A stretch of DNA of 23,189 nt from a virus, in IMG/VR virus record IMGVR_UViG_3300024262_005367, positions 1 through 23,189 of that record; one strand, given 5' to 3'. Positions 5,287-18,844 of the stretch are shown piece by piece; the first letter of the stretch is position 1; every line of letters begins with the position of its first letter. Position numbers and translations under genes: made by a program. Below the pieces are notes generated by a model. That model was not told where the DNA came from. It searched no databases and worked only from the letters and a program-made list of their open reading frames with translations.

Positions 5287-5922
5287 TTAAGCAAATCCGG
5301 TTTTTTTAGCTACTTTATTACCATCAAACTCGTCGACTTCAATATCATCTTCTTCGTCTTCAACGTTAGCATCTAATGCATCGTATTCTAATGCATGATA
5401 TACAGATGAAAGATAATCAGAAGCTTTTGTAATTTTACTTGCTGTCCAACCTTCTAAGCTACCAACATTAGCAAGATGGTTGAATAGTTTTGTAGCGTAT
5501 TCAGCTGCTTTAAGTAATTCAGCTCTTGCCATATCTATCTCACCATCAAAATCGTGATCATCTTCTACTTGACTGATGCATGGTGTTTGACCGCAACCGC
5601 AATTTGATTCTTCAGCATCGTCGCCGGCTTGAATATAAACTTCTTCATCGCTATGTGAACGGCCGCATTCATCTTCTGCATAATTCTCAGCATCTTCAGC
5701 ATTTTTTGTACATTCAGGGCAACCTCCGCATGTGCAACCGTTTTTACCATCTTCACATTCTGAATGATCATGTTCAGGCTTCACTAGAGCAAATACAACC
5801 TTTGCTCCAGTAGATTGTCCTCCAGGTCCTGGAACGTTGATTGATTTACCAATACCGTAACCAAGATTTTCATTTACTTGTTTATATTGCTCAAAAATTA
5901 AATTACTATCAATAGAACCCAT
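5287..5922 (-). CDS. Cys-rich acidic putative virion protein
   Basis: The 211-aa protein has three parts. The N-terminus (SNLIFEQYKQVNENLGYG) has hydrophobic-x-Glu sites (IFE, VNE) but no basic start, so the capsid-targeting match is weaker than in its neighbours. Residues about 50-115 are acidic and Cys-rich (HDHSECEDGKNGCTCGGCPEC, later CGCGQTPC), about ten Cys in all, suggesting metal binding or disulfides. The C-terminal part (ARAELLKAAEYATKLFNHLANV...LEGWTASKITKASDYLSSVYHALEY) is helical and, from memory, resembles a domain of virion proteins in marine T4-like phages. The start is fixed by a perfect TATAAATA box 5 nt upstream. It is divergent from the gene at 5953 and convergent with the one ending at 5273. 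Confidence 0.65.
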   Translation of the reverse strand: MGSIDSNLIFEQYKQVNENLGYGIGKSINVPGPGGQSTGAKVVFALVKPEHDHSECEDGKNGCTCGGCPECTKNAEDAENYAEDECGRSHSDEEVYIQAGDDAEESNCGCGQTPCISQVEDDHDFDGEIDMARAELLKAAEYATKLFNHLANVGSLEGWTASKITKASDYLSSVYHALEYDALDANVEDEEDDIEVDEFDGNKVAKKTGFA

Positions 5923-5927
5923 ATAAT

Positions 5928-5935
5928 TATTTATA
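5928..5935 (-). promoter_or_regulatory. Perfect T4-type late promoter box TATAAATA (minus strand)
   Basis: The reverse complement reads TATAAATA, identical to the T4 late consensus, with exactly 5 nt before the minus-strand ATG at 5922. It forms a divergent pair with the plus-strand box at 5942. Confidence 0.75.
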
Positions 5936-5941
5936 CCAGAC

Positions 5942-5947
5942 TAAATA
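5942..5947 (+). promoter_or_regulatory. Late promoter box CTAAATA, 5 nt before ATG
   Basis: TAAATA (preceded by C) ends 5 nt before the ATG at 5953. Only 6 bp separate it from the divergent box at 5928-5935, so two late complexes would be close neighbours. Confidence 0.6.
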
Positions 5948-5952
5948 ATTTT

Positions 5953-6363
5953 ATGAACTTTAATAAATTATATGAATCATTAATGGAATCCATACAAGAG
6001 GAAGCAAAAAAGTGCTGGGATGGGTATAAAAAAGTACCAGGTATTGCGCGTAGTAAACAAGGTTCATGTAAGAAGAAAATCCCAGAAGAAGATGCAGAAT
6101 ATCAAGGTAGGAAGGTAACTCTTAACAAGCCTACCAGGGGAGATGTTAAGAAGTTTAAGGTATATGTAAAGAACCCTAAAACAGGTAACGTTAAGAAGGT
6201 AAATTTTGGACATGGAGGTACATCTGCTAAGAGTAGAGGTGAGAAGACGATGAAGATTCGTAAGAGTAATCCAAAAGCTCGTAAATCTTTTAGAGCTAGA
6301 CATAAATGCGATCAAAAGAAAGATAAAACCACCGCGTCATATTGGAGTTGCAAGAAATGGTGA
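5953..6363 (+). CDS. small basic phage protein with RARHKCD...YWSCKKW C-terminus
   Basis: The 136-aa protein is strongly basic. Its C-terminal segment, with KSFRARHKCDQKKDKTT then ASYWSCKKW, is one I recognise as recurring in tailed-phage and some large-virus proteins (I associate it with DUF5872, from memory). The central part KKFKVYVKNPKTGNVKKVNFG is typical of the same proteins. Conserved Cys and His residues (CWDGYKKVPG, KQGSCKKK, RHKCD, WSCKKW) could bind a metal. The N-terminus (MNFNKLYESLMESIQEEA) has LYE|S and LME|S sites like a capsid-targeting sequence. Function is unknown; a DNA-binding virion protein would fit its charge. The start follows a late box with 5-nt spacing. Confidence 0.75.
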   Translation: MNFNKLYESLMESIQEEAKKCWDGYKKVPGIARSKQGSCKKKIPEEDAEYQGRKVTLNKPTRGDVKKFKVYVKNPKTGNVKKVNFGHGGTSAKSRGEKTMKIRKSNPKARKSFRARHKCDQKKDKTTASYWSCKKW

Positions 6364-6419: not shown

Positions 6420-6424
6420 CTTAT

Positions 6425-6652: not shown

Positions 6653-7540
6653 ATGGCTATTGTACCTATTGTAAATGATGTATCTATTCTTGATATCCGG
6701 GAGATTATAAATCTTAAGGCGACAATTCTAGGTATATCGTATAATACCGGTACCTCGTATAATATTTACGGTGTCGATAAAAACACAGGTAACATAAGAT
6801 TACGATTATTAAATACAGCTTTGGTCTCTTATACCGTAACAATATTAGTTACAGGACCGGCTACTCAATCCACTACGGTCAGCATATCGCCGAATGGTAC
6901 TTATGATTATAGTAAATCAGCATTACCGGGCGGTACATATACTATAAAGATTAGCATACCTGATGGAAGGAATGATAGTACTAATATTAGTTTAGGTAAT
7001 AACAACATTACTAGTAAAGGTGTATCATTAGGTAATAATTATAATATACAGAATATTAGTATAGCTAAAGACGCGCCAGCACCTCCGTCACCTGCAACTA
7101 CATCTAATTATTTACGTTCAGATGGTATTAACATAGTTAATGCCTTACCACCCACTACCGGTAATGCTGATTTAAGCGACTGGAGAGGAGCTCAAGTATT
7201 TAACGCAGTGTATAATTGTACAAATTCAACTGTAAATATATACGGTGTTGATAAGAGTACAGGTCAAATTAATTTTACTCTGTATAGTATCGGATTTAGT
7301 ACAGGTCCTGTTAGTGTTACCGTTGGTAGTCGTGTAATAACTAAGCCGGTTAGTGCAGGCGCAGCTGGAGAGCCATTTACTCTTAACAATGTATCCGGTG
7401 GTTCGAAGGCATGTAGTATAAAAGATTTGACAACCGGTAATATTTTTAATTTTATTATAACTCTTAATTCGAATGGCGGCACGTCCGCGGGTCTGAACGG
7501 TATTATAAACGGTACAGATAGGATAACTGCATTTGCTTAA
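6653..7540 (+). CDS. putative virion appendage protein with two beta-sandwich-like repeats
   Basis: The 295-aa protein is rich in Asn, Thr, Ser, Gly and Ile, typical of phage fibre or decoration proteins. It contains an internal duplication: residues about 37-50 (YNIYGVDKNTGNIRL) recur near 197-211 (VNIYGVDKSTGQINF). Each is followed by Val/Thr-rich alternating strands (YTVTILVTGPATQ; GPVSVTVGSRVI) and a Gly-rich turn with S-x-LPGGTYTIKI or NVSGGSKACSI. A Pro/Ala linker (APAPPSPATT) joins the halves. This suggests two Ig-like or similar beta domains. No signal peptide is seen, as expected for a virion protein. It is the last gene before the glycan cassette, which may be relevant if virion proteins are glycosylated. 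Exact location on the particle is unknown. Confidence 0.65.
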   Translation: MAIVPIVNDVSILDIREIINLKATILGISYNTGTSYNIYGVDKNTGNIRLRLLNTALVSYTVTILVTGPATQSTTVSISPNGTYDYSKSALPGGTYTIKISIPDGRNDSTNISLGNNNITSKGVSLGNNYNIQNISIAKDAPAPPSPATTSNYLRSDGINIVNALPPTTGNADLSDWRGAQVFNAVYNCTNSTVNIYGVDKSTGQINFTLYSIGFSTGPVSVTVGSRVITKPVSAGAAGEPFTLNNVSGGSKACSIKDLTTGNIFNFIITLNSNGGTSAGLNGIINGTDRITAFA

Positions 7541-7740: not shown

Positions 7741-8457
7741 ATGAAGTTAAGTGAAATTATTGAAGCAATTAACGGTAATATAAAATTTTGTCTCCGTAAT
7801 AGTAAGACTTTTTTTGTTGAGAAGTGCGACGTAACCGGTAATATTATTAAATTTACTGACGCCGTAGATGATATTGAATGTGAAGAGGCCTTAGATAATA
7901 TTGAATTAATAACATTTTCGGATGGTTCTATACCATTTATGTCAGATATAAGTGATATTAAATCTTTCTTAAAGGTAAATGCAGATAATCATAAACAGAA
8001 TAATTTAATTTTTGACGATTATGTACATGCATGTCGTAAATATATGAAACTGTTTAATAAACAGAGTGTTAATATGATTAAGGATGCAGTTCTAAATAAT
8101 AATACAACAAATTTAGATAAATTAACAATAATTAAGTGTAATCAAGTACTTGATTTAGATAACTGTAGTCAGGATGAAGTAAATATAATTAAAGCAACTT
8201 ATAAGAAGTTAGTTGCTACAAAACTCGATGAAGCTCTACATACATTAGATAAATTCATAGCTGATGTAGATGATAAAGAATTTAAACTGGAAGCTAATAA
8301 TATAAAGAAAGATTTATCTGATAATGCTAATGGCTATATACAATCTATTATTAATATACCTTTTGAAGATTTATTCGATACCTGGCCTACCCTGCTAAAT
8401 CCGTCGCCATTTAATTTAAATAAAAAACGAGTAGGTAATCATAAGTCTAATCAATAA
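7741..8457 (+). CDS. hypothetical protein
   Basis: The 238-aa protein is not recognised. The first 75 residues look beta-rich (MKLSEIIEAINGNIKFCLRN...VEKCDVTGNIIKFTD). The rest is helical and charged, with a possible coiled-coil region (ATKLDEALHTLDKFIADVDD). The C-terminus ends with a short Pro/Asn tail (LLNPSPFNLNKKRVGNHKS). There is no signal peptide or membrane segment. It is the first gene of the cassette and is followed 40 nt later by the aminotransferase on the same strand. The ATG is preceded by TATAAT only 2 nt away, so its promoter is unclear. Confidence 0.6.
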   Translation: MKLSEIIEAINGNIKFCLRNSKTFFVEKCDVTGNIIKFTDAVDDIECEEALDNIELITFSDGSIPFMSDISDIKSFLKVNADNHKQNNLIFDDYVHACRKYMKLFNKQSVNMIKDAVLNNNTTNLDKLTIIKCNQVLDLDNCSQDEVNIIKATYKKLVATKLDEALHTLDKFIADVDDKEFKLEANNIKKDLSDNANGYIQSIINIPFEDLFDTWPTLLNPSPFNLNKKRVGNHKSNQ

Positions 8458-8485
8458 GAAAAAATATGTTATTATATTATAAGGG

Positions 8486-8491
8486 TATATA
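8486..8491 (+). promoter_or_regulatory. possible -10 box TATATA, 6 nt before ATG
   Basis: TATATA lies 6 nt before the ATG at 8498, the spacing seen for the TATAAT genes in this window. The sequence is AT-rich, so chance occurrence is possible, and no -35 box is evident. Confidence 0.3.
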
Positions 8492-8497
8492 AGATGA

Positions 8498-9421
8498 ATG
8501 ATTAGACATAACATTAAAGAAGATAATTCTGCTATAGAGCACAATCGTAATGAGTGTTTATTTCCGTCTATCGCGAATAAGGTAATTGATAATATTAAAC
8601 TTACTACCGATGATATAATTAAATATCACTCAACATTCGATATTGAACGAATGTTATTACAAAAAATAAATTCTAACGGATTTATTTTTTGTAATTCTGG
8701 GTCAGAGTGTGTTATTAAACAGATAATTGAATGCTTATCTGAGAATAATAAACAATGGGTCATCCCGCACCCTACGTTTGAATTAACTGATTTTTATTGC
8801 CGGTATTATAAATGTAAGATTGAAAGACCTCTTTATGTGTATAATAATCATTTTTCTATCGATTTAGAGCATATATTAAATGCGCATCAAAAAATACTAT
8901 ATATTGTTTCGCCTCACAACCCAACCGGAGTTACTTTATCTTTAGAGGAGATTGATAATTTATGTAAAAAATACAAATACGTTATACTGGATCAAGCATA
9001 TATGTTACCGGATGAACCAATACATAATCTTAACCATAAAAATCTAATATTAATTAGATCGTTCAGCAAGATGGGATTAATAACCGGGTTACGATTTGGG
9101 TTTGGTATGTGTTTCAATAATAAGTTATTTTTAAAATTTAATCAAATACGTCCAATGTATTTGAATTCATTGACGTTGAAGTTTATCGAATATATAGTAT
9201 TAAACAATATAACTTATAAAATAAAAAATAAAATTGATGATGAGATTATAAAATTTGAATATAATATTAAAGACAGTATAGTTTCGCGTGCCGGTAATTT
9301 TGTACTGTTTAATAATACAATAGATACGTATAACGACCGCCAATTAAAGCAGTATAATTTTAATAATAAATTATTTTACAGGTTAACGATATATGAAACA
9401 GATGAAAATAAATTATGTTAG
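8498..9421 (+). CDS. HisC-like PLP-dependent aminotransferase (fold type I)
   Basis: The 307-aa protein shows the class I/II aminotransferase signature. It has a Ser-rich cofactor loop (FIFCNSGSE, 62-70), SPHNPTG (138-144), LDQAY (D165 is the pyridine-N partner, Y168 the ring contact; Gln replaces the usual Glu of DEAY), and SFSKMGLITGLRFGFG, where K191 is the expected Schiff-base Lys. YRLTIYETDEN near the end resembles the C-terminal R-x-TIG-x-x-x-EN of HisC. It is shorter than HisC (about 350 aa), mostly at the N-terminus. The amino acceptor is unknown; in a cassette with a CMP-sugar synthetase, an amino sugar or aminoacyl precursor is plausible. The last 4 bases overlap the 3' end of the convergent gene at 9418. 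Confidence 0.8.
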   Translation: MIRHNIKEDNSAIEHNRNECLFPSIANKVIDNIKLTTDDIIKYHSTFDIERMLLQKINSNGFIFCNSGSECVIKQIIECLSENNKQWVIPHPTFELTDFYCRYYKCKIERPLYVYNNHFSIDLEHILNAHQKILYIVSPHNPTGVTLSLEEIDNLCKKYKYVILDQAYMLPDEPIHNLNHKNLILIRSFSKMGLITGLRFGFGMCFNNKLFLKFNQIRPMYLNSLTLKFIEYIVLNNITYKIKNKIDDEIIKFEYNIKDSIVSRAGNFVLFNNTIDTYNDRQLKQYNFNNKLFYRLTIYETDENKLC

Positions 9422-10161
9422 TATTGGATACGTTCACGGGTTTTATAAATTTGACGAGCATTATATAAATCTGATATATTATCTACTGATATACCTGATT
9501 CGTTGATCGGTACCATTAAGACAGGTTTATCATGTTCAATAAACCTGTACATTTCTATAGATTCTGATTGTTCTATAGGTCCCTGATTAGTAGCCGCAAA
9601 AAATTTCAGAGCATCCTTATAAAAGGCATATATCCCGAGTTGACGGTAATATGTTGTATCCTTTTTAAACTCTAATGGTATTGGTAGCCTCGAGTAAGCT
9701 AGGGCGTGGTTAGAGGTTGAAAATATTACCTTTACTACGTTTGGGTTATATATTTCATCTTTCAAATCAATAACACTATAACCGTTAACTACTGCTAGAT
9801 CGCTAATAGTAGTTTTGAGCAACGCCTTTGTAATAGTATTAACTGATTCAGGCTGAATAAACGGTTCATCGCCTTGAATATTTACAATTATATCTACATC
9901 TAACATACGAGCGCATTCAGCAACTCGATCTGTTCCAGTTAAATGTTTGTTTGACGTCATAATCCATTTCATGTTAAGATCATCACATACTTTACCAATT
10001 TCTAAGCTATCAGTTGCAATATATGTTGCATCAATAGAGTTGGCTTTAGATGCTTGTTGATATACATGCCACATCATCGGCTTACCTCCAATAGTTGCTA
10101 AAGGCTTTCTCTCAAATCGCGTAGATAATAATCTACATGGTATAACTGCTGCAGTTTTCAT
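9418..10161 (-). CDS. kdsB: CMP-Kdo synthetase-like cytidylyltransferase (KdsB family)
   Basis: The 247-aa protein has the whole KdsB pattern: an N-terminal nucleotide loop (AVIPCRLLSTRFERKPL), GGKPMMWHVYQQA, YIATDSLEI, HLTGTDRVAE, VNIQGDEPFI (QGDEP at 96-100), NPNVVKVIF, ALAYSRLPIP, YRQLGIYAFY and IEQSESIEMYRFIEH. The length matches bacterial KdsB (about 250 aa). The family makes CMP-activated 3-deoxy-octulosonate or a related ulosonic acid from CTP. It is the third gene of a minus-strand operon: its ATG overlaps the HAD phosphatase stop by 4 bp. A phage copy suggests a CMP-activated sugar for a glycan, perhaps used by the GT29-like enzyme at 16261. The exact sugar cannot be read from the sequence. 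Base composition is less AT-extreme than the neighbouring unknown genes. Confidence 0.85.
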   Translation of the reverse strand: MKTAAVIPCRLLSTRFERKPLATIGGKPMMWHVYQQASKANSIDATYIATDSLEIGKVCDDLNMKWIMTSNKHLTGTDRVAECARMLDVDIIVNIQGDEPFIQPESVNTITKALLKTTISDLAVVNGYSVIDLKDEIYNPNVVKVIFSTSNHALAYSRLPIPLEFKKDTTYYRQLGIYAFYKDALKFFAATNQGPIEQSESIEMYRFIEHDKPVLMVPINESGISVDNISDLYNARQIYKTRERIQY

Positions 10162-10766
10162 ATGATATAATCTGGGAGATCTGAGATACAGTTAAGACTA
10201 TATACACTCTCAATTGTATCGCCATATCCCCAACTTGCATGCACGTAATCAACGCCTGACCGTACTGCAGCTTGCTGGTCAGTCGGCATATCTCCAACAA
10301 ATATAGTATTAGCTGGATCTTCACCAGCTTCTACCATTGCCATCAAAATATGATCAGGTGCGGGTTTTCCTCGTATTCGAGGATCCGGGCACTGTACTGT
10401 AATGAAGTTAATCTCTAGGTGTTTTAATATAAGCTTCGCACGAATAGCATCTTTAGAAGTCACCACTCCAATTTTTACCCCTAAATCCCGAAGCTTTATC
10501 AAGGTTTCTTGTACTCCAGGAAAAAATGTCACTTGAGATAGAAAATTCAAAGATGCTTTTGTATATATGTCTTCAATTTGCTTAATATTTGATGTTATAT
10601 TTAGACATCTCATAATATCTCCGAAAGGACGTCCGATTAATGCAAAGTAATCCTCAAAGGTTCGGTTAATATCGGTTTTAGCTAAAACTATATCCCATGA
10701 TTGCCTCATATTTTCACGGGAGTGTATTAATACCCCGTCTAAGTCAAATAGAACAAGGCGTTTCAT
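10158..10766 (-). CDS. HAD-superfamily phosphatase (Gph-like)
   Basis: The 202-aa protein has all four HAD motifs: VLFDLDGVL (nucleophile D8 and D10), the motif II Ser in VVTSKD, the motif III Lys in RGKPAPD, and FVGDMPTDQQAA (motif IV Asp). The cap sequence between motifs I and II is helical, as in phosphoglycolate-phosphatase-like members. It overlaps the KdsB-like gene by 4 bp and the upstream radical SAM gene by 23 bp, so the three are one operon. In such a set a HAD enzyme could remove the phosphate from an ulosonate-8-phosphate, the job of KdsC in Kdo synthesis; this is inferred from context, as KdsC itself is a different, cap-less HAD type. Confidence 0.85.
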   Translation of the reverse strand: MKRLVLFDLDGVLIHSRENMRQSWDIVLAKTDINRTFEDYFALIGRPFGDIMRCLNITSNIKQIEDIYTKASLNFLSQVTFFPGVQETLIKLRDLGVKIGVVTSKDAIRAKLILKHLEINFITVQCPDPRIRGKPAPDHILMAMVEAGEDPANTIFVGDMPTDQQAAVRSGVDYVHASWGYGDTIESVYSLNCISDLPDYII

Positions 10767-11544
10767 CGTGATTCCAGAGTTGACCTTCTTTAATGCCGTA
10801 TATATCGCATTTTGCGCATGGAGTTAATCCGTTACGTTGAGTTTCAAGCATTTTATTAATAAACCGCCTGTAAATATCACTATTTAAATACTGTTCTAGT
10901 GAGGTAGTTTTAACATTTAAACGAGATTTTGATATCTCAGATTCTCTATGCCAGTCGGAATGACATAATAAGTAGTTACCATTCCAATCGATCATTGCTT
11001 TATAAAACGGTATATGACATGGTCGATTTGTATCTATACCAGCCGCGCTCTCAAATGTAGATATACCACCTCTATTATAGAATTCTAATGTTTCCTGAGA
11101 GTATACTTTTTTGATAGTCAGATTTTCAGAAGTATAATTACTATCGCTTAACATAGATAATAATTTATCGTACTGAGATTCATCATCATATAGATCTATC
11201 TTAAGCTCTTCTAACGCAAAAGAATCTAGTATTTTTAATTTATCGACTGTAAGTAAGTCGTAGTTTGTTATAAGAGTTGTAGGGTAATATTTAGATAGTA
11301 GTTCAAGACCGTACATAATATCCTTACACATAAGCGGTTCCGAAAACCCACTTATATATACCGAGCCTTTATAGTTAGAGGTTTGTAATGATTGTAATAT
11401 ATTACCAAATGTTCCTCGAGACATATGTTTATTTTGATTAGGATAAACTTTACTATCAGATCTTGGACAGAACCAGCATTTTCTCGTGCATAATTCAGTA
11501 ACATTTAATTCCACATTGGTAATATGATTAGAGAAAGTTTTCAT
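10744..11544 (-). CDS. radical SAM/SPASM protein 1
   Basis: The 266-aa protein has the radical SAM CxxxCxxC motif (CTRKCWFC; C19, C23, C26) followed by PRSDSKVYPNQNKH. ISGFSEPL stands in place of the usual GxGEPL, and a Cys-rich C-terminus (CHIPFYKAMIDWNGNYLLC...PCAKCDIYG) fits a SPASM/twitch auxiliary cluster. It aligns along its length with the proteins at 12657 and 15352. Family members modify peptides or act in cell-surface sugar gene clusters; the substrate here is unknown. It leads the minus-strand operon with the HAD and KdsB-like genes. Upstream on its strand is TAAATA, 7 nt from the ATG. Confidence 0.85.
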   Translation of the reverse strand: MKTFSNHITNVELNVTELCTRKCWFCPRSDSKVYPNQNKHMSRGTFGNILQSLQTSNYKGSVYISGFSEPLMCKDIMYGLELLSKYYPTTLITNYDLLTVDKLKILDSFALEELKIDLYDDESQYDKLLSMLSDSNYTSENLTIKKVYSQETLEFYNRGGISTFESAAGIDTNRPCHIPFYKAMIDWNGNYLLCHSDWHRESEISKSRLNVKTTSLEQYLNSDIYRRFINKMLETQRNGLTPCAKCDIYGIKEGQLWNHDETPCSI

Positions 11545-11570
11545 ATCATAGTATTTAACACTTAAATCCG

Positions 11571-11609
11571 ACGATTCCAGTTAGCTATATATGTTGAAGT
11601 AATATTATG
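11571..11609. repeat. intergenic repeat, copy 1
   Basis: GATTCCAGTTA, then an identical 17-bp block TATATATGTTGAAGTAA, then TTAT. The same order occurs at 13673-13714. Both copies lie upstream of the paralogous plus-strand genes, so the duplicated unit includes upstream DNA. Confidence 0.7.
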
Positions 11610-11628
11610 AGATATTAAATATATGCAA

Positions 11629-12543
11629 ATGAAATCTAAATATATAATATCGGTAAAAAGTACCGGTCTTTGCTATAATATAATTAGAGTAATTTTATTA
11701 GCCGATAAAGCTAGAGAATATAATAGACAGTTAATATTTATATCTAATCCTGATCATATACCTATCCTCAAAAAATTTAATAATGATTGTGTATACTTAC
11801 CGTTTACCTCCGATCATACAGATAGATTTAATAATTTTAAACGTACTAAATGCTCTCATTTAGTATATGATTTAACCTATAAGTCCTTTCTAAAGTCCGC
11901 ATATATTGATAGTATAACTGATAATAATATAAAAATGGACGATATGAAATATATCAATGGTTGTGTGTACGACATAACTGATAGTGATCATGATATTTTA
12001 TTAATTGACTACAGTCAAGATATAAAATATACCGTAAAAGCTTTATACAATATACCTCATAATAATTTTAATATCAAGAATAATCCAAGTAATAAATATA
12101 ATAGCAGTATATTATCTACTAACATTAGAGCAGACGATCCGGATAATAGTAGAATATATGAGTTATGGGATGAAATAATACCCGCTTTAAAGCAGGAATA
12201 TAATATGCCTATATTGCTTATATCAGGTAATAATGATATAAAAAAATATCTCGGTGATAAGCATGATTGTATGTATGAAATAAAAGAGACAGAAATAAGA
12301 CATTCATTTAGAAGAAATAGTAATAAAATCAAAGGAATAACAAATCACGTATACGACGATCTACTCATTTGTAGGTCTACTCACTTTATACCACTTATAG
12401 AACTGAAAGATGACTTTAAATTTATACTATCCAAATATCGCGATATTAAATTTATAAAGGGCATTCTTGACGAAAAGGGTAGCGGTATTGAGCATTTTGA
12501 TGTATTAGCTCATTACCTGTCAATACCTATCCCGGTACTTTAA
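11629..12543 (+). CDS. paralog A, unknown (possible glycosyltransferase)
   Basis: The protein is about 304 aa. I chose the second in-frame ATG (11629) because its product (MKSKYIISVKSTG) aligns with the start of paralog B (MITKYIVSVKSTG); an ATG at 11623 is possible. The two paralogs match along their whole length, with long identical blocks such as DPDNSRIYELWDEIIPALK and PILLISGNNDIKKYLGDKH. The order is a first Rossmann-like segment (residues 1-55), a variable middle, a second alpha/beta half with MPILLISGNNDI, then DDLLICRSTHFIPL. This two-domain look recalls GT-B or fucosyltransferase-like enzymes, but no diagnostic motif is certain. It overlaps the dead oxygenase fragment by 17 bp at its 3' end. 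Confidence 0.7.
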   Translation: MKSKYIISVKSTGLCYNIIRVILLADKAREYNRQLIFISNPDHIPILKKFNNDCVYLPFTSDHTDRFNNFKRTKCSHLVYDLTYKSFLKSAYIDSITDNNIKMDDMKYINGCVYDITDSDHDILLIDYSQDIKYTVKALYNIPHNNFNIKNNPSNKYNSSILSTNIRADDPDNSRIYELWDEIIPALKQEYNMPILLISGNNDIKKYLGDKHDCMYEIKETEIRHSFRRNSNKIKGITNHVYDDLLICRSTHFIPLIELKDDFKFILSKYRDIKFIKGILDEKGSGIEHFDVLAHYLSIPIPVL

Positions 12544-12656
12544 ACTCTGTCTTAAAGGTGCAGTAATTAACCATTATAGCTCTACGCCTCTCTTTAATAT
12601 TAATAGATTCTAAACCATGCCAAGTATCATTGCTTGGGTAGAAATAAAAATATATG
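12527..12656 (-). pseudogene. 3' fragment of 2OG-Fe(II) oxygenase gene (recent copy)
   Basis: On the minus strand this encodes YFYFYPSNDTWHGLESI, then NIKERRRAIMVNYCTF and KTEFKVPG with a stop. It is nearly identical to the last 40 or so codons of the intact oxygenase at 14680-15270; the DNA is about 90% alike by eye. The frame is still open, but the HxD iron site and everything upstream are missing. The fragment joins directly to the stop codon of the radical SAM gene at 12657. It overlaps paralog A by 17 bp, exactly as the intact oxygenase overlaps paralog B. Confidence 0.85.
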
Positions 12657-13478
12657 CTATTGATTAGACTGTATTGATTTCTTAAAAATGTCTACAGAAT
12701 TAATTCCTCGTTTTGTACCACATACATTGCAGTTATTACATGGGAATTCTTTTCTATCAGTTAATAATCCTCTCCTCACTTCATTGAAGTGATCTGAAAA
12801 CCATATATCATTTATTTCTAATTTATTTATATTCCCAAAATTTTTAGATTTTGTCCAGTCATTCTCACATAACAATATATCACCGTTCCAGTCCACAAAA
12901 AGTTTATAAAAAGGTATATAGCACGGCTTTTTAAAATAACTACCGACCCGTTTAATTATATCGGATCTATTTACTATATTTAAACCGTAATTTTCTTCTT
13001 GCTTGTAATTATGCGAGAAGATAAGATCAATAGGTATATTACCTTTAATATCCGTAAAATATTGAGATTTATCTTCATCATACATACTTATACATATAAG
13101 ATTACAACCAGCATTATATAATTTTTGAATTACTTCTTTAGTTAGTATATCTCCGTTAGTTACTATTTCTATATATTTTAAATCTGGTAATATATCTCGG
13201 ACAATTTTAATACATGAAAAAATATCTCTATGTAATAACGGTTCACCAAAACCTGCAAAACCAACTCTATTATTAAATCCTATATTTTTTAAATCAGTAC
13301 ATAATTTTTTGATAGTATATTCATCTACATGCTTATTAGCATTAGGGTAAACTTTAGCGTCATGCCTAGGGCAAAAGCTACATTTTCTATTACATAACTC
13401 CGTTGGATTTATCTGTACACTATGTAACATTAAATTTGAAGCTTCAGTTTGAATATTTCTTATCTGTTCTTTAAGCAT
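12657..13478 (-). CDS. radical SAM/SPASM protein 2
   Basis: The 273-aa protein carries CNRKCSFC (C29, C33, C36) after NPTEL, then PRHDAKVYPNANKHV, GFAGFGEPLLHRD (the GGEP-type motif), and EIVTNGD. The C-terminus has CYIPFYKLFVDWNGDILLC and FPCNNCNVCG, consistent with a SPASM/twitch cluster site. It is a paralog of the genes at 10744 and 15352. It is the second gene after a small ORF on the same strand (13460-13651), which it overlaps by 19 bp. Its 3' end abuts the oxygenase fragment, so this gene sits at a recombination joint. Substrate unknown. Confidence 0.85.
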   Translation of the reverse strand: MLKEQIRNIQTEASNLMLHSVQINPTELCNRKCSFCPRHDAKVYPNANKHVDEYTIKKLCTDLKNIGFNNRVGFAGFGEPLLHRDIFSCIKIVRDILPDLKYIEIVTNGDILTKEVIQKLYNAGCNLICISMYDEDKSQYFTDIKGNIPIDLIFSHNYKQEENYGLNIVNRSDIIKRVGSYFKKPCYIPFYKLFVDWNGDILLCENDWTKSKNFGNINKLEINDIWFSDHFNEVRRGLLTDRKEFPCNNCNVCGTKRGINSVDIFKKSIQSNQ

Positions 13479-13651
13479 TTTTTAATTATTTCTAAATTTG
13501 TAAGGGACATTCTCTGATTTTTTAAAATAAAAGAGACATTAAAAATACTTGGATCTTTTAATATTACAAAATTACTAAAACTTTTCTCGCAATAACCGTT
13601 AGTGTATAAAAAATCTTTTGTCTCGTTCATTCTTTCAATATGAAATCTCAT
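13460..13651 (-). CDS. small hypothetical protein upstream of radical SAM 2
   Basis: A 63-aa ORF (MRFHIERMNETKDFLYTNGY...) that overlaps the start of the radical SAM gene by 19 bp. It is supported by the lack of any other gene here, by promoter-like TATACT and TATAAT sequences just upstream on the minus strand, and by the overlap typical of operons in this window. I see no similarity to other genes in the window and no known motif. It could be the remnant of a larger gene lost during the local rearrangements. Low confidence. Confidence 0.35.
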   Translation of the reverse strand: MRFHIERMNETKDFLYTNGYCEKSFSNFVILKDPSIFNVSFILKNQRMSLTNLEIIKKCLKNR

Positions 13652-13672
13652 TTATTATAGTATAATAATCTC

Positions 13673-13714
13673 GAGATTCCAGTTAATTATTTATATATGT
13701 TGAAGTAACTTTAT
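13673..13714. repeat. intergenic repeat, copy 2
   Basis: Second copy of the GATTCCAGTTA ... TATATATGTTGAAGTAA block found at 11571-11609, with three extra bases in the spacer. It lies upstream of paralog B. Confidence 0.7.
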
Positions 13715-13752
13715 AGGCTAATAAGTATACATACCTTAAGGTTTCGCCTATA
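13712..13752. repeat. nested inverted repeat upstream of paralog B
   Basis: TATAGGC (13712-13718) pairs with GCCTATA (13746-13752). The loop contains a second palindrome, ACCTTAAGGT (13733-13742), and ACCATGGT (13753-13760) follows directly. No T tract follows, so it is not an ordinary terminator. The element is absent from the matching place upstream of paralog A. It may be an operator or a structured RNA leader. Confidence 0.5.
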
Positions 13753-13799
13753 ACCATGGTACGGTAATATCTATTACTCCTGATTTAATTAAATTATAA

Positions 13800-14696
13800 A
13801 TGATAACAAAATATATAGTATCGGTAAAAAGTACCGGTATCAGTTACAATATAATTAAGTTAATATTATTAACTGATTTAGCTAAGAGATATAATAGGCA
13901 GTTAATATTTTTAACTGATACAAGCCATATACCTATTCTTAAAAAATTTAATAATGACTGTATATATTTAACTTGTGTATCAGGTCATACCGATAAGTTT
14001 AATAGTTATAACCGTAAGAGACAGATACAGTCAATATATGAGTTAAACTATAAGAAGTTTTTAAAATCGACATATATAGATAATATAACTACCGGTATAG
14101 ACATGCAGGATATAAAATATATTTATGGATGTATATTTGACATAGTTGATAGTAAGCATGATGTATTATTAATCGATTACGGTAAAAACATAAAAAATAC
14201 TGTAAAGGCTCTACATAGTATACCTAGTGATAGATTTAATATAGACGTTAGCCATCATAAATATAACAGTAATATATTAACGATTAATGTTATAATTAAT
14301 GATCCAGATAATAGTAGAATATATGAACTGTGGGATGAAATAATACCAGCTCTTAAACATCGATATAACATGCCTATACTACTTATTTCAGGTAATAATG
14401 ATATAAAGAAATATCTTGGAGATAAGCATAATTGTCAATATGAAATAAAGGAAACTGAAGTAGTTTATTCACTTAAAAGAAATAGTAATACAATTAAAGG
14501 AGTACCGCGGCATGCGTATGATGACCTGGTTATATGTAAATCTACTCATTTTATACCTTTTATAAAGCTAAAGGAAGATTACCCTAGTATAATATCTAAA
14601 TATAACGATATTAAATTTGTAACTAAAGTTAACGCCGTCGGTGGGCCTTTTGATATACTAGCTCATTATCTATCGGTAGCTACGCCGGCACTTTAA
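13800..14696 (+). CDS. paralog B, unknown (possible glycosyltransferase)
   Basis: The 298-aa protein (MITKYIVSVKSTGISYNII) is a full-length paralog of the gene at 11629. Shared features are the N-terminal alpha/beta segment ending in HIPILKKFNNDC, a KALHSIPSDRFNI segment, NSRIYELWDEIIPALK, MPILLISGNNDIKKYLGDKH and the C-terminal STHFIP and FDILAHYLS blocks. Divergence is greatest in the middle third, which may reflect acceptor choice if these are transferases. The strong use of ATA codons and short AT runs matches paralog A and differs from the KdsB and HAD genes. The 3' end overlaps the intact oxygenase by 17 bp. Function is not established. Confidence 0.7.
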   Translation: MITKYIVSVKSTGISYNIIKLILLTDLAKRYNRQLIFLTDTSHIPILKKFNNDCIYLTCVSGHTDKFNSYNRKRQIQSIYELNYKKFLKSTYIDNITTGIDMQDIKYIYGCIFDIVDSKHDVLLIDYGKNIKNTVKALHSIPSDRFNIDVSHHKYNSNILTINVIINDPDNSRIYELWDEIIPALKHRYNMPILLISGNNDIKKYLGDKHNCQYEIKETEVVYSLKRNSNTIKGVPRHAYDDLVICKSTHFIPFIKLKEDYPSIISKYNDIKFVTKVNAVGGPFDILAHYLSVATPAL

Positions 14697-15270
14697 ACTC
14701 TGTCTTAAAGGTGCAGTAATTAACCATTATAGCTCTGCGTCTCTCTTTAATATTAATAGATTCTAGACCGTGCCATGTATTATTACTCGGATAAAAATAA
14801 AACCCCGTATTATTAATATACGGTACTGTTGTTATATATTCTTTTTTATTATTATATAATGCTGTCCCAATATCTGGATCTTCGTCAGTATTATTTAAAT
14901 ATACTAAAAAGCTCATAATCTTTTCATTGATATCTACATGAGGTTCAAGCCAAGATTTTTCCTTATCTTCAATAAGTTCAATTCGGAGATAATTACCTCT
15001 AATCTTTACATTAGACTCTTTTTCAAACATATCAATCGTCTCATCTTTAAGAAAGAAATCTACAGCACGATTTAATACAGAACTACTCCACATATTATCT
15101 TTATTAACAAAGAATCTGTTATTGTTAGTGGCGCGTTCACCATCTAGCATTGCTGAGTGGTTATTTATTTTAATATTATTAATATCTGCTAACTCTTTAT
15201 CGCAGAAAAAATCAGTAAAAGTATAATGAGAAAAGGGGTTAACATTACACTGTTTATTTTGAAATTTCAT
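14680..15270 (-). CDS. 2-oxoglutarate/Fe(II)-dependent oxygenase (intact copy)
   Basis: The 196-aa protein shows the double-stranded beta-helix oxygenase pattern: LEPHVDINEK (HxD; H111, D113), SFLVYLNN, DIGTALYNNK, then NTWHGLESI (distal His, H167) and ERRRAIMVNY (2-oxoglutarate-binding Arg among R177-R179). The family hydroxylates or otherwise oxidises small molecules, sugars or proteins; this short type is common in marine phages. A TATAAT box lies 7 nt upstream of the ATG on the minus strand (15278-15283). The 3' end overlaps paralog B by 17 bp. Two dead copies of its 3' end lie at 12527 and 7575. A role in tailoring the glycan made by the cassette is inferred from context. Confidence 0.85.
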   Translation of the reverse strand: MKFQNKQCNVNPFSHYTFTDFFCDKELADINNIKINNHSAMLDGERATNNNRFFVNKDNMWSSSVLNRAVDFFLKDETIDMFEKESNVKIRGNYLRIELIEDKEKSWLEPHVDINEKIMSFLVYLNNTDEDPDIGTALYNNKKEYITTVPYINNTGFYFYPSNNTWHGLESINIKERRRAIMVNYCTFKTEFKVPA

Positions 15271-15351
15271 TTATTCTATTATATATTAAAGGTAGATATT
15301 TATCAAGATATATTTCATTTGATTTTTATCTTGAATATAATAATTACTTAT

Positions 15352-16209
15352 GTGATAGCTAATAATAAGCAAGATATAATAGAATTAAGAAAGAAGCAGC
15401 TAGCAGTAGATGATAATTTGACGCCGATGCTAGCTCTGCAGAGTATAACTATCAATCCTACAGAATTATGCAATCGTACATGTCACTTTTGCCCTAGAAG
15501 TGATTCAAAGATTTATCCGAATCAGAACTTACATATTTCTGAAAATACAATACGTAAGTTGAGTTCAGAGCTTAAGTTAAACAATTATACAAACAGAGTT
15601 GGTTGGTCTGGTAATGGCGAACCTCTTCTTACAAAGGACTTTTATAAATTAGTAAAAATTATTAGTGATGAAAACCCTCAATTAAAGGTACATGAAATCA
15701 ATACAAATGGTGATAAAATTAAACCAGAAACTATAGATAGAATATTTAATGCTGGTATTAATCATATAATAGTTAGTTTATATGACGGTGATGATCAGCT
15801 TGAAAAATTTACCAGTATGTTTCAAGGTTATAATACAGAGAGTTTTACATTAAGAAAAAGCTATTACACCTCAGATAGCTTTGATGGATTTACTAGTAGA
15901 GCTGGTGCAGTAGAAGTTAATACTAACCTGTTAAAAGATAATATCAAGAATAAATGCTACTTACCTTTCTATAAGCTCTTTATCGATTGGAACGGAGATC
16001 AGATATTATGCTGCGAAGATTGGTTTAAGCTTACAAAAAATAAACTAAATATTAATACTCATACATTAAAAGAAATATGGGAGTCTACTTTTTTAAACAA
16101 TTACCGCACACATCTAAAGGCAGGTAAGAGAGATTTAACAGCTTGTAATAAATGCAATATAAACGGCGAGAAGGTAGGAGAGCAGTATACGGAATATTTT
16201 AAATTATAA
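15352..16209 (+). CDS. radical SAM/SPASM protein 3
   Basis: The frame is open from 15226, but the first 42 codons are hydrophobic, lie across the start of the minus-strand oxygenase and have no counterpart in the paralogs. I therefore prefer the GTG at 15352 (about 285 aa). From there the motifs are NPTELCNRTCHFCPRSDSK (C40, C44, C47), WSGNGEPLLTKD, EINTNGD, and a C-terminal CYLPFYKLFIDWNGDQILCCEDW with TACNKCNING for auxiliary clusters. It is closest to the proteins at 10744 and 12657. TATAAT at 15336-15341 lies 10 nt before the GTG. Downstream on the same strand are the two glycosyltransferase-like genes, so it may be the first gene of a short glycan operon. Confidence 0.8.
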   Translation: MIANNKQDIIELRKKQLAVDDNLTPMLALQSITINPTELCNRTCHFCPRSDSKIYPNQNLHISENTIRKLSSELKLNNYTNRVGWSGNGEPLLTKDFYKLVKIISDENPQLKVHEINTNGDKIKPETIDRIFNAGINHIIVSLYDGDDQLEKFTSMFQGYNTESFTLRKSYYTSDSFDGFTSRAGAVEVNTNLLKDNIKNKCYLPFYKLFIDWNGDQILCCEDWFKLTKNKLNINTHTLKEIWESTFLNNYRTHLKAGKRDLTACNKCNINGEKVGEQYTEYFKL

Positions 16210-16260
16210 ATTTAAATATTGATTAACCGGTACTGTATAATAATTATAGATAATAAGTTA

Positions 16261-16842
16261 ATGGAGAATATAATTATAATCGGTAACGGGGGATCTAACC
16301 TAGATAAAAAGAATGGTAAAGAGATAGATAAATTTACTAAAGTTGTAAGGCTTGGGCAGTTTCATTTAGATGGTTATGAAGATTATGTAGGTAAAAAGAC
16401 TGATATTATATCGACTTCGCATTGGAAATTAAATATAGAGAGGCTCGCTAAAACTAAAACTATAATATGCGTACCGTTCTACTCAAAAGAGAGTTATAAA
16501 GAAAATGAACTATTCGTTAATAGTGATTATAAAGACCTTTTACATAATATATTATATATAGATAAGCAAGAAGACTATCACTATATATGGGATAATTTTA
16601 AAAGTTTAAACCCTCCTTTTGAGAGCGGTGATGTTAATTTTTCACTCGGCTTTAAAACAATTTTTTTAATAATGAAGCTATTCCCGGATAGCAAAATAAC
16701 TGTTACAGGTTTCGATTTTTTCTTAACAGGTTGGTATTGGAAAAAAGATCATAATAGAGATATAGCTAACTGTCATCCGTATATATATGAGAAGCTATAT
16801 CTTAAGAGAATGATAATCGATAAAACTATACATTTACTATAA
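16261..16842 (+). CDS. GT29 (sialyltransferase)-like glycosyltransferase
   Basis: I start the protein at ATG 16261 (MENIIIIGNGGSN, 193 aa) rather than an upstream TTG at 16219, because the nucleotide-sugar fold begins here. The order IIIGNGGSN, FTKVVRLGQFHLDGYEDYVGKKTDII and later ITVTGFDFFLTGWYW resembles the L- and S-type sialylmotifs of GT29-like proteins (a Gly/Asn loop, a V-x-R segment, a G-x-K-TD segment, and TGFDF). HNRDIANCHPYIYEKLYLKRM near the end could supply the catalytic His. GT29 enzymes use CMP-activated sugars, which fits the KdsB-like gene in the same cassette. A GATAAT box sits 6 nt upstream. Family assignment is by motif memory. Confidence 0.65.
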   Translation: MENIIIIGNGGSNLDKKNGKEIDKFTKVVRLGQFHLDGYEDYVGKKTDIISTSHWKLNIERLAKTKTIICVPFYSKESYKENELFVNSDYKDLLHNILYIDKQEDYHYIWDNFKSLNPPFESGDVNFSLGFKTIFLIMKLFPDSKITVTGFDFFLTGWYWKKDHNRDIANCHPYIYEKLYLKRMIIDKTIHLL

Positions 16843-16844
16843 TT

Positions 16845-17534
16845 ATGAAAGATAAAATAAATATCTATATTGGATTAGATGAGGATCATCTAGATGCATT
16901 TAATGTTTGTAAGCAGAGCATACTAGAAAAAAATAAAAAGTATAATATTAATATACTACCTGTTAACTATAACACAGTTAAGGAATATGATAGAGTTAAG
17001 GATCAATATGAATCTACTCAATTTACATTCGCTAGATTTTTTGTACCATATCTTAGTAACTTCAAAGGTATAAGTATATTTCTTGACGGGGACTTTTTAT
17101 TATTGGAATCAATTGATAAATTGTTAGATTTATATGACTCTAAATATGCAGTGCAGTGCTGCAAACATGATTATATTCCGAAAAGTTCAGTTAAAATGGA
17201 CGGTAAAAAACAGGTAGCTTGGCCTCGTAAAAACTGGAGTAGTTTAATAATATTCAACAACGAACATCCAAAAAATAAAACTCTCACACCTCTTACAATT
17301 AATAATCAGTCTGGAGCCTTCTTACATAGGTTTAAATGGTTAGATGATGAGGAAATAGGGTCATTACCGTTGCAATGGAATTGGCTAGTTGGTTGGTATA
17401 CCGAACCTAGAGACGGTAATCCCTTAGCTCTACACTACACAGAAGGTGGACCATGGCTGGATGGATTTAAAAACTGCGAATATTCCGGATTATGGGAAAA
17501 GGCATTTGATAAACTAAAAAAATCAAATAAGTAA
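16845..17534 (+). CDS. GT8-like glycosyltransferase
   Basis: The 229-aa protein has a GT-A look. INIYIGLDEDHLDAFNVCKQSI opens with the nucleotide-binding strand, FTFARFFVPYL precedes the metal site, and ISIFLDGDFLLLESI carries the DxD motif (DGD). The later WSSLIIFNNEHP, LPLQWNWLVGWY, ALHYTEGGPWLDG order matches GT8-type enzymes, with His in LHYTEGGPW a likely second metal ligand. It starts 2 nt after the previous gene, so the two are co-translated. The donor sugar cannot be read from the sequence. It ends the glycan cassette, and the next gene is a histone-like protein of a different kind. Confidence 0.75.
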   Translation: MKDKINIYIGLDEDHLDAFNVCKQSILEKNKKYNINILPVNYNTVKEYDRVKDQYESTQFTFARFFVPYLSNFKGISIFLDGDFLLLESIDKLLDLYDSKYAVQCCKHDYIPKSSVKMDGKKQVAWPRKNWSSLIIFNNEHPKNKTLTPLTINNQSGAFLHRFKWLDDEEIGSLPLQWNWLVGWYTEPRDGNPLALHYTEGGPWLDGFKNCEYSGLWEKAFDKLKKSNK

Positions 17535-17539
17535 TTTTT

Positions 17540-17734
17540 ATGACAGATATCGAAAATAACGTTAATTCACTTAAGGAAAATTATGAGCACTTTACAGCAG
17601 ATGTAGCTAGCTTTACAGAAAAGGGCAATAAAGCTGCAGCCACTAGAGCTCGAAAAGCTTTAATGGATATATCTAAACTTTGCAAAGATATAAGAAAACA
17701 GATTCAAGAGATAAAGAATAGCAGTCAGGCATAA
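17540..17734 (+). CDS. histone H1-like protein (Hc1 type)
   Basis: The 64-aa protein is one long amphipathic helix with TEKGNKAAATRARKALMDI, then KLCKDIRKQIQEIKN. The EKGNKAAATRxR core matches what I know of chlamydial Hc1 and its relatives in other bacteria and phages. Only the Hc1 N-terminal domain is present; the Lys/Ala-rich DNA-binding tail of Hc1 is missing, so the protein has near-neutral charge and may dimerise rather than condense DNA alone. It begins 5 nt after the GT8-like gene. Its stop codon overlaps the late promoter box of the next gene. Confidence 0.7.
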   Translation: MTDIENNVNSLKENYEHFTADVASFTEKGNKAAATRARKALMDISKLCKDIRKQIQEIKNSSQA

Positions 17735-17737
17735 ATA
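17730..17737 (+). promoter_or_regulatory. Late promoter box CATAAATA, 5 nt before GTG
   Basis: CATAAATA ends exactly 5 nt before the GTG at 17743. An ATG at 17741 is followed at once by TGA, so the promoter spacing and frame together point to the GTG as start. Confidence 0.65.
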
Positions 17738-17742
17738 ATAAT

Positions 17743-18159
17743 GTGATTACCTTTAAAGAATTCTTTGAATCAAACAAACCTCTTGGATTAATAGAAACTA
17801 TAGAGTTTGAAGAACTAGGTCCCATTGAAGCTAAAATTGATAGCGGCAATGGGGCTTACAATGTCTTGCATGGTGTTAATATAGACCATAACGGTGACGA
17901 AGTTACTTTTGAAACGGTAAACGGTCAAATAATCACTAAGCAGGTTGTTGAATTAATTGATATTAATATCGGCTCAGGTAATATTGAACAGAGACCGGTC
18001 GTTGAGTTTGACATTAAAATAGGTGATGAATTACACCGTAATATAAAATTCTCTATAGGTGATAGGACAGAAAACGAATATAAAATACTCGTTGGTAAAG
18101 ATTTTATTGAAGAGCTTGGCGGCATCATCGATGTCACCAAGCAAAACAATCTAGACTAA
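17743..18159 (+). CDS. retropepsin-like/RimK-associated protease-like protein, possibly packaged
   Basis: The 138-aa protein has IEAKIDSGNGAYNVLH, a D-S-G active-site loop like that of aspartic retropepsins. It is followed by GDELHRNIKFSIGDRTENEYKILVGKDFI, which resembles the R-x-x-x-F-x-x-x-DR...LLGR-x-F/L region of the RimB-type "ATP-dependent zinc protease" family (PF05618, from memory). Such proteins would act as dimers. The N-terminus (MITFKEFFESNKPLG) resembles a capsid-targeting sequence, which raises the possibility of a packaged or head-maturation protease. Start GTG, see the promoter entry. The stop codon abuts the folE stop with no gap, so the genes converge without a terminator. 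Confidence 0.65.
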   Translation: MITFKEFFESNKPLGLIETIEFEELGPIEAKIDSGNGAYNVLHGVNIDHNGDEVTFETVNGQIITKQVVELIDINIGSGNIEQRPVVEFDIKIGDELHRNIKFSIGDRTENEYKILVGKDFIEELGGIIDVTKQNNLD

Positions 18160-18810
18160 TTAATTCTTCATATCAGCTACAAACTGATAGAATTCACTAC
18201 GCGTAGATGAATCACTCATAAAGTCGCCTGTAAGCTTTGACGTCTTCATCTCACAACCATCATGCTTAACACCTCTGAGACATGCACACGTATGAGTAGC
18301 AGTTAACATCACTGCAACTCCTTTATTACCTTCACAAATCTTGCTGATAGCTTCATGGATTTGAACTGTAAGTCCTTCTTGAATCTGAGGTCGACGAGCA
18401 TAATGTTCTACAATTCTATTAAGCTTACTCAATCCGATTACTTTACCATCTGCAGATGGAATATAAGCGACGTGACACCGGCCAGTAAAAGCCAGGTGAT
18501 GATGAGAACATAAACTCTTAACTGGAATTCCACCTTGAAATACCATTCCATCATACCCATCAGACGGGAATGCAGTAATATTAGGTAATTCATTGTAACA
18601 CCCAGATGCAATATCATTTACATACGCCTTAGCAACGCGTCTAGGTGTATTATCACTATTAGGATCATTGCGCCAATCAATACGTAAGGCATCTAAGAAC
18701 TTTTCATAAGCAAATGTAGCATCATTAATGACAGCTGCTTTTTCTTCATCTGTTAACGGCATATTACCGTTAGCTGTTGGTAATTTCATAATTTTAACTC
18801 TATCTGACAT
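18160..18810 (-). CDS. folE: GTP cyclohydrolase I
   Basis: The 216-aa protein matches FolE (E. coli about 222 aa). It has TPRRVAKAYVNDI, then CSHHHLAFTGRCHVAYIP (zinc C101 and H104), GLSKLNRIVEHYARRPQIQEGLT, and ATHTCACLRGVKHDG (C175, the third zinc ligand), ending with TREEF-like TRSEFYQF. It converts GTP to 7,8-dihydroneopterin triphosphate, the entry to folate or to 7-deazaguanine synthesis. With queD and queE close by on the other strand, the 7-deazaguanine route is the likely use. It has its own early-type promoter, divergent from the head-protein gene at 18860. Confidence 0.95.
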   Translation of the reverse strand: MSDRVKIMKLPTANGNMPLTDEEKAAVINDATFAYEKFLDALRIDWRNDPNSDNTPRRVAKAYVNDIASGCYNELPNITAFPSDGYDGMVFQGGIPVKSLCSHHHLAFTGRCHVAYIPSADGKVIGLSKLNRIVEHYARRPQIQEGLTVQIHEAISKICEGNKGVAVMLTATHTCACLRGVKHDGCEMKTSKLTGDFMSDSSTRSEFYQFVADMKN

Positions 18811-18816
18811 ACTCTA

Positions 18817-18844
18817 ATTATATAGTATATTACTATAAAATCAA
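18817..18844 (-). promoter_or_regulatory. early-type promoter for folE
   Basis: On the minus strand, TTGATT (18839-18844) and TATAAT (18817-18822) are separated by 16 bp. TATAAT ends 6 nt before the ATG, so transcription would begin at the start codon. The -35 box touches the plus-strand late box at 18845. Confidence 0.65.

Follow-up and report, generated by a model that had tools for sequence, protein, structure and literature searches.

Gene content of the cassette

We analyzed the gene cassette at positions 7741 to 17534 of an IMG/VR virus record of 23,189 bases (IMGVR_UViG_3300024262_005367; this whole stretch is referred to as the window here), whose source is, judged from the matches of its flanking genes, a T4-like marine phage. 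A preliminary description of this DNA had named an aminotransferase, a cytidylyltransferase, a phosphatase, three radical S-adenosylmethionine (SAM) proteins, an oxygenase, and two glycosyltransferases (GTs). All of these were found as intact open reading frames (ORFs), mostly with family scores far beyond chance; those of the 2-oxoglutarate (2OG) oxygenase and the GT8-like transferase were marginal. Four features had been overlooked, namely, two copies of a gene called X here (X1 and X2) and the tails of an aminotransferase gene and of a 2OG oxygenase gene. The cassette contains the following features (position, strand, and description; the related loci, given as L numbers, and the cassette types A, B, and C are introduced below).

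7741..8457, +, U1, conserved first gene of type A cassettes (11-member alignment)
8498..9421, +, HisC/CobD-like pyridoxal phosphate (PLP) aminotransferase of type A, with the Schiff-base Lys in SFSK (PF00155, E = 9e-20)
9418..10161, -, KdsB-like, putative cytidine monophosphate (CMP)-ulosonate cytidylyltransferase of the 3-deoxy-manno-octulosonate (Kdo) type (PF02348, E = 1e-42)
10158..10766, -, HAD-IA phosphatase (PF13419, E = 2e-29)
10744..11544, -, rSAM1, BtrN-like twitch radical SAM protein of the type C lineage (77% to L116)
11629..12543, +, X1, predicted GT-B glycosyltransferase of an unnamed family (64% to X2)
12527..12650, -, remnant of a duplicated 2OG oxygenase gene, of which only the tail is left, copied along with X1 (translation and self-alignment)
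12657..13478, -, rSAM2, BtrN-like twitch radical SAM protein of the type B lineage (62% to L004)
13460..13651, -, 63-codon C-terminal tail of a type B aminotransferase beside rSAM2 (61 bits to the L004 aminotransferase)
13800..14696, +, X2, predicted GT-B glycosyltransferase in the ancestral position adjoining the 2OG gene (profile and model)
14680..15270, -, 2OG-Fe(II) oxygenase, kept in type A cassettes (PF13640, HxD..H..R)
15352..16209, +, rSAM3, native BtrN-like twitch radical SAM protein of type A (start corrected)
16261..16842, +, GT29-like (sialyltransferase-like) transferase (start ATG at 16261 by alignment to relatives)
16845..17534, +, GT8-like glycosyltransferase (PF01501; phrog_28018, E = 7e-52)

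The start of rSAM3 was moved from 15226 to the GTG at 15352, since its homologues begin at residue 43 of the longer ORF. The aminotransferase matches its counterparts in L092 and L023 at 79% and 59%, respectively, and the SK motif is invariant in 15 aligned sequences; with 76.6 bits, it does not reach the cutoff of 276.6 of TIGR01141, the equivalog model of true histidinol-phosphate transaminases. The KdsB-like protein (47.5% to that of L023) passes the subfamily model NF003952 (247.7 bits, cutoff of 193) and remains below NF009905 (246.2 versus 255) and the kdsB equivalog TIGR00466 (143.9 versus 155.2). Its nearest solved structure is the Kdo cytidylyltransferase 1gq9, and we regard it as a Kdo-type ulosonate cytidylyltransferase with a putative substrate; a KdsB scan of IMG/VR gave no match. 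The HAD phosphatase (39% to that of L023) was also considered as a KdsC, an assignment that was unsupported given that its best models were phosphoglycolate- and 3-amino-5-hydroxybenzoate (AHBA)-type HAD-IA phosphatases and that every equivalog scored under its cutoff.

Among the transferases, the GT29-like protein reaches 35 bits with PF00777 (cutoff of 23) over 53 residues only and matches sialyltransferases in PDB with an E value of 2e-5, and the GT8-like protein narrowly passes PF01501 (25.4 versus 24.3 bits). The 2OG oxygenase falls marginally under the cutoff of PF13640 (25.8 versus 27); the HxD...H...R residues are present in its sequence, and the protein is conserved in 12 loci. U1 has a nearly invariant C terminus, WPTLLNPSPF, a motif confined to U1 proteins among the fetched loci, and diverges to ∼20% identity in the rest of its length. 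Its AlphaFold 2 (AF2) model had a mean local confidence (pLDDT) of 89 (best model only), with no match in a fold search against PDB, and the sequence had no match in the phage records. Likewise, the DNA of the cassette did not match any phage record.

Relationship of the radical SAM proteins to BtrN

Each of the three radical SAM proteins (rSAM1, rSAM2, and rSAM3) matches both Radical_SAM and SPASM of Pfam above the gathering cutoff. We searched PDB with a profile of 29 phage members of this family, which retrieved BtrN (4m7t and 4m7s) over the whole length with an E value of 8e-44; the second-best enzyme scored 8e-9. BtrN, an alcohol dehydrogenase, carries out a two-electron oxidation of the hydroxyl of an aminocyclitol (PMC9012708). 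All 29 aligned sequences, including the three from the window, contain the CxxxCxxC cysteines of the radical cluster (C16, C20, and C23 in BtrN), the four twitch cysteines of a single auxiliary cluster (C169, C187, C232, and C235), and the equivalent of R152, and the TNGD of BtrN is likewise conserved in the phage family. We take R152 to be a catalytic residue of BtrN. The seven-Cys SPASM motif (CX9-15GX4C-gap-CX2CX5CX3C-gap-C, as defined in PMC6231123) was present in 0 of ∼70 rSAM relatives. The preliminary description was right in counting three radical SAM proteins, and its term SPASM was loose, as all of them are four-Cys twitch proteins with one auxiliary cluster. Kinship to BtrN suggests that the phage proteins would convert a hydroxyl to a ketone.

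Scanning IMG/VR with the rSAM profile yielded 136 relatives, from which 80 loci were kept. Many of these contigs are fragmentary, and the absence of a gene was judged only for cassettes with both borders. In a tree of the rSAM sequences, rSAM3, rSAM2, and rSAM1 fall into three separate clades (support of 100/100, 100/99, and 100/100, respectively), each within a different phage lineage, which rules out a local triplication. An identity as antiviral viperins was discarded as well, since the PADLOC matches span only the generic radical SAM core. Among 72 nonredundant rSAM genes, a GT8-family gene was located within two genes in 30 and a HisC-family gene in 18 (co-occurrence counts from rSAM-centered searches). 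Lineages A, B, and C each have their own HisC, and a gene of an aminotransferase family lies near the rSAM in the bacterial relatives L086, L087, and L089 as well (class III by Pfam in L089). In L087 (71-16133), from an alphaproteobacterial metagenome-assembled genome, the BtrN-like rSAM adjoins flagellar-type genes, an aminotransferase-family relative, and a carbamoyltransferase (PF02543/PF16861), which suggests flagellin glycan modification at that locus.

Cassette types at a shared site

The related loci carry several types of cassette. Type A, found on about a dozen viral contigs, is a block of U1, GT29, X, 2OG (on the opposite strand), rSAM3, often f31, and GT8; independent scans with GT29 and with X recovered the same type A contigs. 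The glycan-making character of the gene set, as given in the preliminary description, was borne out by the conservation of its glycosyltransferases and sugar-modifying enzymes as a block in other phages. Type B (L004, L007, L009, L010, and L026, with L011-L012 related) comprises HisC, rSAM, GT8, an epimerase, a PIG-L deacetylase, a DegT-type protein, an RmlD-type reductase, a nucleotide-diphospho-sugar transferase, and a member of the amidinotransferase family known from Campylobacter phages. Type C (L116-L118) contains the rSAM1 lineage, a further rSAM, and its own HisC.

Comparison with related loci delimited the site that type A and type B cassettes occupy, as follows.

5287..6363, both strands, f24 (-) and f29 (+), conserved left border of the swap site
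6653..7540, +, f47, a fast-evolving gene with weak Ig/X25-like matches, immediately 5' of type A cassettes
17743..18159, +, f14 (PF05618, Zn_protease), conserved right border of the swap site

The left flank of the window shares 97% identity with L030 (1588-4541) and 93-97% with L010 (93% over 5281-6335); on the right, identity with L030 is 84% over 17516-21171. L010 carries a type B cassette, and L030 carries a type A cassette without HisC, KdsB, and HAD. By this comparison, types A and B share one site, between f24/f29 and f14, where they are allelic replacements of each other between conserved borders. The different cassettes at the same position point to a modular exchange of sugar coats or of host-surface changes among phages. 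From its position, f47 could be speculated to be an acceptor or a virion protein.

The pair of KdsB and HAD was found in only one other related cassette, L023, and was absent from five distinct complete type A cassettes (L025, L030, L036/L092, L039, and L057); GT29-bearing cassettes mostly lack KdsB. The CMP-ulosonate branch is therefore optional, and the single coherent CMP-ulosonate pathway of the preliminary description was not upheld. Another type of phage cassette, in L029 and L040, encodes a 3-deoxy-arabino-heptulosonate 7-phosphate (DAHP)/KdsA-like synthase (PF00793), a distant KdsB-like gene, GT29, GT8, and a cupin, and appears to hold a fuller CMP-Kdo-type route.

Mosaic assembly of the cassette

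The base form of type A, represented by L036 and L092, consists of U1, HisC, X, X, 2OG, rSAM3, GT29, and GT8, with one rSAM and without KdsB and HAD. Relative to this form, the cassette in the window has two inserts. The first, at 9418-11544, is the block KdsB-HAD-rSAM1, whose GC content is 32-38% versus 27-32% for the other cassette genes; the order HisC, KdsB, HAD is also found in L023, and rSAM1 is instead 77% identical to that of the type C locus L116. The second, at 12657-13651, is rSAM2 with the aminotransferase tail, and a colinear 70% DNA match to L004 extends across both. Between X1 and rSAM2 sits the 2OG gene tail of ∼40 codons (12527-12650), and X1 together with the tail duplicates X2 and the end of the 2OG gene at 75% (self-alignment of 1040 nt).

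On these comparisons, the cassette is a mosaic to which three or more lineages (native A, B, and C) contributed. Given the separate clades of the rSAMs and the inserts, the three-rSAM state arose from recombination between cassettes and is not a conserved three-step pathway. The preliminary description had placed three paralogs in one pathway; rSAM1 and rSAM2 were instead added from other cassette types to a base cassette with one rSAM. All three rSAM ORFs are intact despite their separate origins.

X, a family of predicted GT-B glycosyltransferases

Neither X1 nor X2 matched any entry in Pfam, the PDB sequences, or the phage records. The AF2 model of X from a 13-member alignment reached a pLDDT of 87.6. 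Its structural matches in the top 17 rows were the GT-B fucosyltransferases NodZ, FUT1, and POFUT (Z scores of 11.3 to 9.2), followed by WaaC (Z score of 9.1) and the remaining GT-B proteins at lower scores, suggesting that X is most likely a GT-B glycosyltransferase. The usual HxR donor motif for GDP-fucose has no invariant copy in the 13 X sequences, which show an N-x-K-like position instead (assigned by eye). The product of f31, found in related cassettes, is remotely related to X (94% in hhalign). Among BFVD entries, A0A3G5A2W3 from the giant virus Harvfovirus is annotated as "radical SAM protein," and most of this protein matches X in fold; here either annotation and fold are in conflict or the entry is a fusion protein.

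Scanning IMG/VR with the single protein X2 gave no match. The X alignment recovered 16 loci, all of them (16/16) inside a type A-like cassette and none outside, so that the core genes are not scattered singly in related phages, in agreement with the preliminary view of a linked gene set. A search of 84,980 genomes of bacteria and archaea returned no relative of X and thus gave no host source for the cassette.

Proposed function and alternative explanations

Building on the gene content and families, the BtrN-type ligands, the predicted fold of X, and the conservation, swapping, and mosaic origin of the cassettes, we favor, with some reservation, the explanation that the cassette is an exchangeable unit for glycan biosynthesis, in which a BtrN-like oxidation is usually combined with PLP-dependent amination and several transferases act on a host-surface or virion acceptor. 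The 5'-deoxyadenosyl radical of the rSAM would abstract a hydrogen from the carbinol carbon of a sugar or cyclitol, and the auxiliary [4Fe-4S] cluster would accept the second electron to give a ketone, which the HisC-like PLP enzyme could convert to an amine. The sugar built in this way would be an unusual one and is probably amino-modified. Oxidation followed by amination is supported by the frequent pairing of rSAM and aminotransferase in types A, B, and C and in L086, L087, and L089. The HAD phosphatase would remove a phosphate, the KdsB-like enzyme would form a CMP-ulosonate, and the 2OG oxygenase may hydroxylate the sugar or the acceptor. The GT29-like, X, and GT8-like transferases would then join the residues to an acceptor, either a glycan of the host surface or a protein of the virion, and the altered surface may exclude rival phages or shield the particle. 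A broader version of this proposal, which we put forward only tentatively, is that such cassettes are swappable glycotype loci, in which BtrN-like and PLP enzymes make amino-ketosugars absent from the host (here an amino-ulosonate) and phage glycosyltransferases including X attach them to the particle or the cell, with recombination resembling that of O-antigen loci.

Several observations weigh against the favored explanation. In the phage rSAM family, F61 of BtrN is replaced by G and H117/A118 by Y-D, both invariantly, so the substrate is likely not that of BtrN but a compound whose main features are common within the family. The branch of the rSAM tree leading to BtrN is long (3.7), and the placement of BtrN is unsure. 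The complete type A cassettes L025, L030, L039, and L057 keep rSAM3 without HisC, and a phage aminotransferase therefore need not follow the oxidation. Moreover, an ulosonate synthase (KdsA or NeuB type) is absent from the window, and outside the region of sialyl motif L the GT29 match is not strong. Which reactions take place and in what order, and what product and acceptor are involved, we infer from the sequences.

With respect to the target, we see a nearly even chance that the cassette remodels only the lipopolysaccharide (LPS) or capsule of the host, tailoring host-made precursors for serotype conversion and superinfection exclusion. GT8 is typical of LPS loci, KdsB is nearest to Kdo cytidylyltransferases, the bacterial rSAM relatives are found in glycan-type islands (one of them beside flagellar-type genes), and the window lacks precursor synthases; a host-surface role is also the published view for pelagimyophages (PMC7029224). 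However, the window has no gene for membrane transport or ligation. That the cassette instead glycosylates a virion protein, such as f47 or U1, as a shield or a decoration for host recognition is possible but rather unlikely. Both genes are directly upstream in type A cassettes and travel with them, and virion glycosylation is established in mycobacteriophages, according to work cited in PMC12619734; on the other hand, f47 has no structural annotation and U1 has no fold match, and by position alone they are candidate acceptors. The location of the cassette beside replication and nucleotide-metabolism genes argues for neither target, and the weights given to the two overlap because both fit the favored explanation.

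The remaining alternatives concern the enzymes themselves. It seems improbable that rSAM1 and rSAM2 are decaying hitchhikers left by recombination, with no present role: the two gene tails and the duplicated X do indicate patchwork assembly and the base cassette manages with one rSAM, but both ORFs are intact and retain all seven cluster cysteines and R152. We give very little credence to the rSAMs acting as peptide-modifying enzymes on U1, in the manner of ribosomally synthesized and posttranslationally modified peptide (RiPP) maturation. Peptides are the substrates of many SPASM/twitch enzymes, and U1, with its conserved C-terminal motif, is present in every type A cassette; types B and C, however, have rSAMs without U1, the full-length profile match is BtrN and not a RiPP maturase, and the neighboring genes encode sugar enzymes and glycosyltransferases. 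Equally remote is a sugar for hypermodification of the phage DNA. Some phage glycosyltransferases can act on DNA, as cited in PMC12619734, and 7-deazaguanine-type genes (GTP cyclohydrolase, PTPS, and a QueE-like gene, the last name resting on a weak 4Fe-4S match and a reading of the sequence) lie immediately to the right, but the PTPS and QueE-like genes are there regardless of the cassette type, GT29, GT8, and X are not known families of DNA glycosyltransferases, and the window lacks a hydroxymethyl-base enzyme.

Flanking genes

To the left of the swap site, a 677-amino-acid gene at 3240 encodes DUF6267 and a cytidylyltransferase-like domain. It has homologues in 523 phage records, mostly of cyanomyophages and also of Methylophilales phage Melnitz, where the homologue comes after the DNA polymerase and helicase genes and ahead of ribonucleotide reductase. 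A SegE-like GIY-YIG homing endonuclease is encoded at 284-694 (+; PF19835, E = 4e-32), and a short fragment of a GIY-YIG endonuclease is found at 6401-6595 (+; PF01541, E = 3e-5), between f29 and f47, in a slot that holds gene f21 in the relatives L010, L030, and L036. It could be a trace of whatever agent moves cassettes. At the right edge, a small histone H1-like Hc1 protein (17540-17734, +; PF07432, E = 4e-21) is also present in L028/L057, and the 7-deazaguanine-type set (GTP cyclohydrolase I, PTPS/QueD-like, and QueE-like) at 18160-22545 recurs in several relatives. No tRNA or Rfam family was found in the window.

Comparison with known systems

The Kdo8N route of Shewanella proceeds by oxidation with KdnB, transamination with KdnA, and activation with KdsB. 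It resembles the proposed chemistry in oxidizing, aminating, and CMP-activating a Kdo-type sugar, and differs in that KdnB is a metal alcohol dehydrogenase and KdnA belongs to another aminotransferase class. The window, in comparison, has no KdsA. The phage rSAMs share with BtrN, the radical SAM/twitch 2-deoxy-scyllo-inosamine dehydrogenase of butirosin biosynthesis, the seven cluster cysteines, R152, and TNGD, as well as an aminotransferase as a frequent neighbor. They differ in their location in glycan cassettes with glycosyltransferases and in the changed F61, H117, and A118, and their activity is a prediction. X resembles the NodZ/FUT1/POFUT GT-B superfamily in its predicted fold, without a sequence match in PDB or Pfam.

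The Campylobacter phages CP220 and CPt10 carry several radical SAM genes and an amidinotransferase that are swapped as a block between close relatives (Timms et al. 2010, PMC2853527), and in the related phage CP20, the amidinotransferase, two rSAMs, and an aminotransferase-family gene fall into families found in our cassettes. These modules differ in their host and in lacking the core of GT29, X, and 2OG, and the portions of PMC2853527 considered leave the radical SAM function unassigned and do not propose glycan synthesis. Closer in habitat, the hypervariable host-recognition island of pelagimyophages contains GT8-rich glycan genes and radical SAM cassettes (Zaragoza-Solas et al. 2020, PMC7029224). 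These phages are also T4-like, marine, and related to cyanomyophages, with cassettes that differ between near relatives; their island adjoins tail fiber genes, whereas the site described here is located between replication-type and 7-deazaguanine genes, and the gene-level anatomy and the relationship to BtrN are not described in the parts of that account considered here.

Cassettes of this general kind were thus known before, and the term "undescribed system" used in the preliminary description was too strong, given the similar cassettes of Campylobacter phages and pelagimyophages; their chemistry was not worked out in the same parts of the two accounts. Radical SAM genes of marine and Campylobacter phages have been on record for >15 years with no role assigned in the published accounts, as far as the portions considered extend, and the kinship to BtrN together with the steady aminotransferase and glycosyltransferase neighbors in three or more lineages gives the group a concrete, testable reaction. 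The window also illustrates how a cassette grows, by whole swaps at a fixed site and by inserts of foreign enzyme genes that leave tails behind. If the product is borne out, this would be a case of phages inventing surface sugars as interchangeable modules, with a bearing on how phages compete in the ocean and which hosts they infect there. Relative to the considered portions of PMC2853527 and PMC7029224, the new elements are the BtrN assignment with its conserved ligands, the GT-B family X, the definition of cassette types that share a site, a CMP-ulosonate branch that can be dispensed with, and the traces left by assembly.

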